Both the position numbers and the translations under genes were made by a program. Shown here in pieces: positions 5,087 through 6,162 of a stretch of DNA of 32,915 bases. Below the pieces are notes generated by a model that had not been told where the DNA came from, did no database searches, and saw only the letters and a program-made list of their open reading frames with translations. The DNA comes from Acidobacteriota bacterium (GTDB lineage: Bacteria; Acidobacteriota; Terriglobia; Terriglobales; Acidobacteriaceae). How positions within the stretch are numbered: the first letter of the stretch is position 1; the number at the start of each line of letters is the position of its first letter. The DNA is taken from NCBI GenBank assembly GCA_021818105.1, contig JAKAFB010000034.1, positions 1-32,915 on the forward strand, given 5' to 3'.

Positions 5087-5158
5087 GCGTCCTCGACGGC
5101 GTTCGGTACCGAGTTAAATAATTGATGACACTTTTTCCACTTTGCTCACGTTTTTTGC

Positions 5159-5187
5159 TTGACACTGAGCAAGCATGAATCTATACA
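5159..5187 (+). promoter_or_regulatory. Strong sigma-70-type promoter of the Lys/Ala peptide gene
   Basis: A perfect -35 TTGACA (5159-5164) and a -10 TATACA (5182-5187, 5/6) are separated by exactly 17 bp. This is the best consensus promoter in the window. Transcription should start near 5194, which is the first base of the palindrome at 5194-5215. Confidence 0.8.
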
Positions 5188-5193
5188 TTCCTC

Positions 5194-5234
5194 AACTGCA
5201 ATTCCAATTGCAGTTTCGATGCAACCCATCGAAA
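5194..5234 (+). promoter_or_regulatory. Structured 5' leader: two back-to-back hairpins
   Basis: The first hairpin is a perfect 10-bp inverted repeat, AACTGCAATT (5194-5203) and AATTGCAGTT (5206-5215), separated by CC. The second is TTTCGATG (5214-5221) and CATCGAAA (5227-5234) with loop CAACC. They share two bases, so both stems cannot be fully formed at once. The first lies at the predicted 5' end of the transcript, where it could protect the mRNA from decay. As DNA, the same palindrome could be an operator just downstream of the promoter. Confidence 0.6.
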
Positions 5235-5249
5235 AGGGAGAATAGGCAA

Positions 5250-5321
5250 ATGGCAACGAAGAAAGCAGCCAAGAAGGCACCCGCGAAGAAGGCCGCGAAG
5301 AAAGCCGCGAAGAAGAAGTAA
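5250..5321 (+). CDS. 23-residue Lys/Ala-rich histone-H1-tail-like peptide
   Basis: A tiny frame opens with ATG at 5250 and stops with TAA at 5319-5321. The product begins MATKKAAKKAPAKK and continues with AAKKAAKK-type repeats to KKK. It is almost only lysine and alanine, with one proline and one threonine. GGGAG lies about 10 bases before the ATG. The composition matches the C-terminal tails of bacterial H1-like proteins (Bordetella BpH1, chlamydial Hc1) and the AKK repeats of some actinobacterial HU proteins, which bind DNA by charge. Here the tail stands alone with no globular domain. The unit has a consensus promoter, a folded leader and a very strong terminator, so it is a compact monocistronic gene of about 190 nt. 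DNA or RNA binding is inferred from charge. It could instead be the coding part of a dual-function small RNA. Confidence 0.72.
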   Translation: MATKKAAKKAPAKKAAKKAAKKK

Positions 5322-5342
5322 CGGGTCATCCAACCAAAAGGC

Positions 5343-5384
5343 AACACTGAGGGGGACGCTCACAGCGTCCCCCTCAGTGTTTTT
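5343..5384 (+). terminator. Rho-independent terminator of the Lys/Ala peptide gene
   Basis: A perfect 18-bp stem has its left arm at 5343-5360 (containing ACTGAGGGGGACGCT) and its right arm at 5364-5381. The loop is three bases (CAC) and the 3' end runs through GTTTTTGG. It begins 21 bp after the peptide stop codon and about 50 bp before rsmE, so it insulates the two genes. Confidence 0.9.
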
Positions 5385-5430
5385 GGAAACAAGGTATGCT
5401 TGTAGGCGCAGGATGCACGAGGGAGCGCCG

Positions 5431-6162
5431 ATGACACGCCGCCGCTGGATTGCAGAACACTGGGATGAAGCCACCGCAACGCTCGTGGGAACGCAGGCCG
5501 AGCACATGATTCGCGTGCTGCGCGCGCAGCGCGGCATAGAGGCCGATGTAGTCGCCGGTGGCCGTGTTTTCCATGCCGAAGTCGCCGCCATTGAAAACGG
5601 CGAGGTGCGCTTCAATCTGCTCGCGGAGTTGGAAGCGGATCCTGCGCTGCCGGTCACGCTCGCGATGGCCGTTTACAAATTCGATCACATGGAGTGGGCC
5701 ATCGAGAAAGCCACCGAGCTCGGCGTCGCCGCCATTGCGCCCATGATCGCGTGGCGCACCGAAAAGCATCTGGCGCAGGCCGCCGAAAAGCGTGCGGAGC
5801 GCTGGCGGCGCATTGCCAAGGAAGCATCGCAGCAGGCACGCCGTGCTGACATTCCGGTGATCCGCAATCCTGTGCCGCTCGCAACGCTCGTCCGTACCGC
5901 CTCATCTGCGGCCCGCATCGTGTTAGCCGAGCAGGAGCGCTCCACCACACTTCGCCATGCCATGGATGCAATCCTGGCCTCCACGGGTGATGAGATGCCC
6001 TCGCTCGAAATTGCCATTGGCCCCGAGGGCGGATGGGCTCCGGCAGAAGAGGCGATGTTTGACGCGAACGGCTGGCACGCCGTCTCGCTAGGGCCGCGCA
6101 TCTTGCGTGCGGAAACAGCCGCCATCTCGGCGCTCGCGGTTGTCGCTTCCTATTTGGAGTAG
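5431..6162 (+). CDS. rsmE: 16S rRNA (uracil1498-N3)-methyltransferase
   Basis: The product is 243 aa, the usual RsmE length. It has an N-terminal PUA-like domain and a C-terminal SPOUT (trefoil-knot) methyltransferase domain. Visible signatures are the EKATELGV helix, RWRRIAKEASQQARR, IGPEGGW (the SAM-binding knot) and SLGPRILRAETA. The enzyme methylates N3 of U1498 in the decoding region of 16S rRNA. The ATG at 5431 was chosen because GAGGGAG precedes it with five bases between. An in-frame ATG at 5413 is less well placed. A terminator isolates it from the small gene upstream, and it converges on the UxaA-type gene with 34 bp between the stops. Confidence 0.93.
   Translation: MTRRRWIAEHWDEATATLVGTQAEHMIRVLRAQRGIEADVVAGGRVFHAEVAAIENGEVRFNLLAELEADPALPVTLAMAVYKFDHMEWAIEKATELGVAAIAPMIAWRTEKHLAQAAEKRAERWRRIAKEASQQARRADIPVIRNPVPLATLVRTASSAARIVLAEQERSTTLRHAMDAILASTGDEMPSLEIAIGPEGGWAPAEEAMFDANGWHAVSLGPRILRAETAAISALAVVASYLE

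Follow-up and report, generated by a model that had tools for sequence, protein, structure and literature searches.

A tiny stand-alone Lys/Ala micro-gene with a structured RNA spans a class of soil bacteria

A compact transcription unit and its conservation within the genus

The window analysed here is a stretch of 32,915 nucleotides (contig JAKAFB010000034.1, positions 1 to 32,915) from a member of the Acidobacteriaceae. Between the genes for an Rce1-like (CPBP) protease (PF02517) and RsmE (PF04452), both named by Pfam, the window carries a promoter, two leader hairpins, a ribosome site, a 23-residue Lys/Ala frame and a terminator-like hairpin, in agreement with the original prediction (positions in Table 1). 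The gene is too short for normal annotation. The −10 element agrees with the consensus at four of six positions, and a promoter scan requiring T at the sixth −10 position did not list the promoter. The transcript would start near position 5194. The conserved stem of hairpin 1 comprises 7 bp (5196-5202/5207-5213). The predicted fold of the window RNA reached −71.6 kcal/mol (z = −6.0), and none of 200 dinucleotide shuffles was equally low. In a terminator scan, the 3′ hairpin was listed for the minus strand alone, since part of the T run was counted into the stem on the plus strand; the plus-strand terminator was read by eye. Given the minus-strand score, the hairpin (5343-5381) could work as a terminator in both directions.

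Table 1. Features of the unit in the window and its downstream neighbour
Feature	Position	Strand	Description and basis
Promoter	5159-5187	+	TTGACA 5159-5164, 17-nt spacer, TATACA 5182-5187; direct reading
Leader hairpin 1	5195-5214	+	stem 5195-5202/5207-5214; fold; at predicted RNA 5′ end
Leader hairpin 2	5215-5233	+	stem 5215-5221/5227-5233; fold
Ribosome site	5236-5245	+	GGGAGAATAG; GGGAG at 5236-5240
GGCAA copy 1	5245-5249	+	5′ of start codon; motif enrichment; unpaired probability 0.70
Micro-ORF	5250-5321	+	MATKKAAKKAPAKKAAKKAAKKK, 23 aa; ATG 5250, TAA 5319-5321; reading and same-genus conservation
GGCAA copy 2	5252-5256	+	overlaps start codon; unpaired probability 0.52
GGCAA copy 3	5340-5344	+	3′ UTR; motif enrichment; unpaired probability 0.70
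3′ hairpin, terminator-like	5343-5384	+	18 pairs 5343-5360/5364-5381, 3-nt loop, T run 5380-5384
rsmE (outside the unit)	5431-6162	+	PF04452; Pfam match

A DNA query covering positions 5140-5400 was searched against 60 genomes, 35 of which are other members of the same genus. Near-full-length matches, one of them truncated where its contig stops, were found in 31 of these genus members and not in G007, G019, G021 and G033. Since the unit is conserved in relatives, it is not a chance arrangement. TTGACA and TATA were invariant in all 31 same-genus leaders, and the 17-nt spacer varied. This comparative evidence supports the proposed self-contained unit, which is probably transcribed as such. The frame was intact in all 32 loci read (the 31 and the window), encoding MATKK...KKK peptides of 20-30 aa whose length changes were all in frame. 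This is the fairest count of frame intactness, because these loci were found with the whole unit and not by a start-codon pattern. Among 10 distinct 23-aa frames from 12 loci, pairwise single-base codon differences numbered 27, 0 and 283 at codon positions 1, 2 and 3 (310 in total), and 283 of them were synonymous. The intact frames and the third-position bias indicate coding selection on the micro-ORF, as had been predicted.

The RNA structure is also conserved. Compensatory changes occurred at eight of 15 consensus pairs of the 3′ stem in the 32 loci. In the same-genus leaders, 92.3% of cells kept the hairpin pairs, with seven double-changed cells versus 1.2 in shuffles, and further pair types were no more frequent than in shuffles (327 of 500 as high). 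For hairpin 1 in a set of 70 of 71 leaders (L151 is truncated), 94.6% of cells paired; 50 cells were double-changed, compared with 17.0 in shuffles (none of 500 reached 50). Slid controls did not exceed 11, and a 48-leader subset gave the same result. These double changes fell at five of the seven pairs, a number reached by 154 of 500 shuffles. When 92 distinct leaders were folded (a set without L146 and L151), 83 had two hairpin loops and nine had one, with a mean z of −3.8 against mononucleotide shuffles and 85 leaders below −1; Edaphobacter-type leaders often folded differently. The stem of hairpin 2 occurred as TCGATG/CATCGA, TCCAT/ATGGA, TCGATT/AATCGA or TCCAC/GTGGA, and no hairpin 2 was found in 16 of the 92 leaders. 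The two leader hairpins share two bases in the window (5214-5215), as proposed, but these shared bases are kept in only three of 31 aligned leaders, the window included. Therefore, a leader switch is not supported. RNAalifold suggested that the −10 element pairs with the Shine-Dalgarno (SD) region; this was rejected because that element lies outside the predicted transcript. At least five T within 8 nt after the 3′ hairpin were present in 73 of 94 units; the tract was weak in the other 21 and scarcer in Edaphobacter-type loci. As the threshold is reached in only 73 of the units, we infer termination rather than observe it.

Distribution and gene neighbourhood

At E ≤ 0.1, a model built from the 31 same-genus leaders (R1) had matches in 104 of the 399 genomes of the class. 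Scanning named genomes with a sequence pattern gave at least 118 loci; the 80 loci listed all had Acidobacteriota titles, including Edaphobacter, Granulicella, Terracidiphilus, Acidobacterium, Candidatus Sulfotelmatobacter and other bins. Cultured carriers of the unit include Granulicella rosea DSM 18704 and Edaphobacter modestus DSM 18101. Of the 80 listed loci, 78 encode peptides of 12-30 aa and two run off the locus, and many Sulfotelmatobacter-type units encode MATKKKAKKKKKH. A second model (R2) matched 164 of the 399 class genomes at E ≤ 0.1, namely 105 of 110 in the home family and 59 of 289 in others. A Lys-rich frame followed the leader in all 37 other-family loci fetched of these 59, with peptides such as MAAKKKAKKKR (11 aa), MPTKKAPAKKKPAAKKKK, MKNATKKAAKKAPAKKAAAKKKK and MATKKRAAKKTTKKKKTKKRK and long forms of 52 and 76 aa. 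A third, sequence-only model (R3), made from 37 class-wide leaders, matched 233 of the 399 genomes at E ≤ 0.001 (97 of 110 in the home family, 136 of 289 in others). Twenty further R3 loci all came from family f6, which also supplied training rows for this model; 15 of them had a frame passing the K+R filter, and three had K/A/P frames of 87, 104 and 120 aa. The scan pattern contains the ATG and first codons and the R1-R3 models include the start region, so that these sets over-represent intact frames. In the 37 class-wide leaders, the GAC of the −35 element, T-TA of the −10 element and GGAGAA were invariant. The unit is single-copy, with one match per genome in all 233 R3 rows and in nearly all R1 and R2 rows. 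When R3 was run over 396 phylum genomes, only weak and scattered matches of 14-18 bits (best E = 0.007) were found outside the class.

Peptide lengths across the class are usually 11 to about 30 aa, and some reach 50-120 aa. In loci L253, L257, L351, L352 and L358, a leader of this type is followed by a K/A or K/A/P frame 52-120 aa long, which suggests a repeat expansion of the micro-ORF. Five home-family genomes (G268, G306, G417 of g30, G317 and G430) lacked any R2 match and are candidates for complete loss of the unit.

The original prediction placed the unit between a CPBP-like gene and rsmE. Within the genus, rsmE lies directly downstream on the same strand in all 31 loci, but a CPBP-like gene was found upstream in no more than 14 of them; among the remaining 17, L040 has no upstream flank to search. 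As a general layout this proved too narrow, since the unit spans the class and its neighbours differ. In the Edaphobacter and Granulicella rosea loci fetched, no rsmE was found. In 12 Sulfotelmatobacter-type loci (L079, L082, L085, L086, L100, L102, L103, L116, L132, L138, L141 and L153), it lies 3.4-5.0 kb downstream and is encoded on the opposite strand, and the neighbourhood may therefore predate the adjacency. L109 likewise has a CPBP gene upstream of the unit, which may be a remnant of an older gene order. Among 30 representatives, 28 gave a unit (L242 and L301 did not), and the nearest large downstream ORF, defined heuristically, ran antiparallel to the unit in 20, shared its strand in seven (three of them rsmE loci) and was absent in one. 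Of four convergent neighbours submitted to Pfam, three received a name (UvrD, RmuC and Methyltransf_28). A conserved co-directional downstream gene was thus found within the genus and not across lineages.

RNA kept where the reading frame is lost

Two genera related to the home genus, g22 and g24, have lost the start codon and the frame. All eight matched g22 genomes and all nine matched g24 genomes retain the promoter, hairpin, GGGAG and 3′ hairpin, and a K-rich frame was absent from all 17 when seven start codons were tried, except for a 7-residue chance frame in L270. In the eight g22 genomes, the former-ORF core, from GGGAG to GGCAACACA, had 43 of 53 columns invariant and a mean identity of 0.92, compared with 0.69 for the hairpin region, 0.78 for the 3′ hairpin, 0.60 for the promoter spacer and 0.38 for the gap to rsmE; rsmE itself gave 0.82, 0.90 and 0.45 at the three codon positions. 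One-nucleotide indels within the core make a hidden conserved frame unlikely. rsmE starts 56-85 nt past the 3′ hairpin in all eight g22 loci. These data point to selection on the RNA that is separable from the ORF, most strongly in g22. The original prediction held that frame-destroying changes in close relatives with conserved hairpins would make the unit a plain sRNA. Such changes are what g22 and g24 display, but the plain sRNA was not borne out, because the home-genus frame is under clear coding selection; the outcome is both.

In a tree of 44 RsmE rows, the 16 included g22 and g24 rows formed one branch (100/96). A single ORF loss followed by long maintenance of the RNA is the simplest reading of these sequences; it is no proof, because L272 and genera without an adjacent rsmE, such as Edaphobacter, are outside the tree. 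The loss in g22 and g24 may have been one event, followed by exaptation. Two g19 genomes (L280 and L282) are likewise frameless, and so are two f6 loci (L353 and L357), in which ATG is changed to ACG while the promoter, hairpin and GGGAGAATC are kept and a hairpin with T's lies downstream. From their sequences, these four may represent simple decay.

In 24 ORF-less or unmatched genomes, no relocated micro-ORF was found by an exact SD plus MATKK pattern, which other starts would escape. The pattern matched 20 sites in 18 of the 24 genomes, all with frames of 79-211 aa, and relocation was rejected as all these matches were longer proteins, many of them K/A-tailed. Loci L286-L303 comprise MATKK-start proteins with K/A/S/T tails from genomes lacking the micro-ORF; many share a C-terminal part, which in one case was identified as PF20106.

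The frameless RNAs are rich in a short motif. In 19 ORF-less RNAs, GGCAA was counted 53 times in the segment bounded by GGGAG and the 3′ hairpin, 11.6 times the number in mononucleotide shuffles. Among distinct 3′ UTRs from units with an ORF, 67 of 91 contained it (74 copies versus 3.9 expected). Both counts rest on related and hence non-independent sequences. The ORF-less L268 and L280 have a single copy each, a number often reached by shuffles. The first core copy in g22 had unpaired probabilities of 0.78-1.0, and the other copies ranged from 0.03 to 1.0 (L269 was outside this set). The motif looks confined to the home group.

A putative dual-function RNA and its relatives

The unit matches no known family in the libraries searched. 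Rfam gave no match at the gathering score in the window and 12 related loci, and a known RNA family was therefore rejected; seven sub-threshold matches at E ≤ 10 all overlapped the 3′ hairpin. Among peptides long enough for the search (20 aa or more), two of 23 aa and a 29-aa variant had no Pfam match. NCBIfam gave no match above cut-off, the 29-aa variant showing a sub-threshold similarity (E = 0.095) to hist_H1_lk_Burk. A literature search of open-licence PMC papers yielded no description of the unit, and PMC5521070 does not mention Acidobacteria. To its composition, the closest likeness is that of histone H1-like tails (Hc2, AlgP and BpH1/hist_H1_lk_Burk), which share the Lys/Ala repeats. 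These are longer proteins, Hc2 being reported to have 165-237 aa, whereas the tail of the unit is free-standing with its own structured RNA. The K/A-tailed PF20106 (DUF6496) proteins, present in genomes without the micro-ORF, resemble it in their MATKK start and tail but are longer, have a C-terminal domain (one was checked against Pfam) and lie at other loci. In the home genome, the secondary DNA matches to the frame of the unit come from the gene of a 233-aa protein (L002; G000:C72, about 17.5 kb), which is acidic in its N-terminal part and carries a long K/A/P tail.

By analogy, the nearest precedent is SgrS/SgrT with its ORF-less relatives. According to PMC4021124, the ORF is lacking in Yersinia and its start codon in E. 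coli O157:H7, while the RNA is kept. Both systems combine a short RNA (predicted for the unit), a small ORF in its 5′ part, an intrinsic terminator (here a terminator-like hairpin) and ORF-less relatives. In the enterobacterial system, however, SgrT is a 43-aa protein that targets PtsG, and mRNA targets of SgrS are known, whereas the unit encodes a Lys/Ala polycation of mostly 11-30 aa and is found class-wide in another phylum. What distinguishes the unit is its polycation product, peptides as short as 11 aa and its presence across the class as a single copy. Spot 42 differs from the unit in composition and host group. It resembles the unit in that it codes for a functional protein of only 15 aa (PMC10339803).

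The coding selection in the home genus and the RNA kept in frameless genera support the predicted role of the unit as both sRNA and mRNA. With a probability of roughly 0.6, we interpret it as a single-copy dual-function RNA gene, that is, a polycation-micropeptide mRNA and a regulatory RNA, because two selections act on one transcript, one on the charge and frame of the micropeptide and one on the RNA. Two jobs are probable since one species group lost the peptide yet kept the RNA. A sigma-70-type promoter would produce an RNA of about 190 nt with a hairpin at its 5′ end and a terminator-like hairpin at its 3′ end. As an mRNA, it would be translated into a free polycationic micropeptide, mostly of 11-30 residues and made up almost wholly of Lys and Ala. 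The most likely ligands of this peptide, which would need no folded domain to bind them, are polyanions (RNA, DNA or ribosomes). The RNA itself would act in a second and separable way by means of its 5′ hairpin; in the home family, the repeated AGGCAA motifs, many of them predicted to be unpaired, probably contact a partner RNA or an RNA-binding protein, possibly Hfq, for which the genome has three matches over cut-off.

A rather unlikely alternative is a plain small-protein gene, in which the hairpins, SD and 3′ hairpin do no more than stabilize the mRNA and promote its translation. The product would be a histone-tail-like polycation with nucleic acid or some other polyanion as its ligand, and the ORF-less copies would be degenerate or exapted. 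The strong coding signature, the Lys-rich frames throughout the fetched other-family loci and in most further f6 loci, and the K/A tails on longer proteins agree with it, and a 5′ hairpin with a strong SD is a usual layout for high expression. Against it stand the g22 core conserved far above neutral without a frame, the GGCAA enrichment outside the frame, and the 17 of 17 matched g22 and g24 genomes that keep the RNA without the frame. Those frameless genomes would suit a purely regulatory RNA with an accidental frame; the third-position bias, the lack of second-position differences, the in-frame indels and the Lys-rich charge kept across families make that reading highly improbable. The same low standing goes to a leader peptide or attenuator of rsmE. 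Although rsmE directly follows the unit in all same-genus loci and the core in all g22 loci, it is missing from the fetched Edaphobacter and G. rosea loci and inverted in the 12 Sulfotelmatobacter-type loci, and the downstream gene elsewhere is often convergent; the attenuator was therefore rejected as a general explanation.

Concerning the ligand, the histone H1-like protein AlgP is reported to take part in the spacing of polyphosphate granules (PMC9239181). Tiny basic ribosomal proteins are known as well. It is nevertheless hardly likely that polyphosphate or ribosomes, and not nucleic acid, are the main ligand of the peptide, as a low-complexity peptide of varying length is more in keeping with a loose polyelectrolyte than with a defined site on the ribosome. 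An improbable but more specific extension of the dual-function reading is that of an ancient regulatory RNA carrying its own RNA chaperone. The micropeptide would be made from, and act with, the RNA that encodes it, helping the AGGCAA motifs to anneal to partners or compacting the RNA into a ribonucleoprotein, and g22 and g24 would have swapped the peptide for another cationic protein while keeping the RNA.

To our knowledge, coding genes of 11-16 residues conserved this deeply are very rare. The unit is a single-copy, class-wide gene missing from the protein and RNA family libraries searched (Rfam, Pfam and NCBIfam), and it makes two questions testable: the role of free polycation peptides in bacteria, and how a dual-function RNA may lose its coding half and keep its RNA half.
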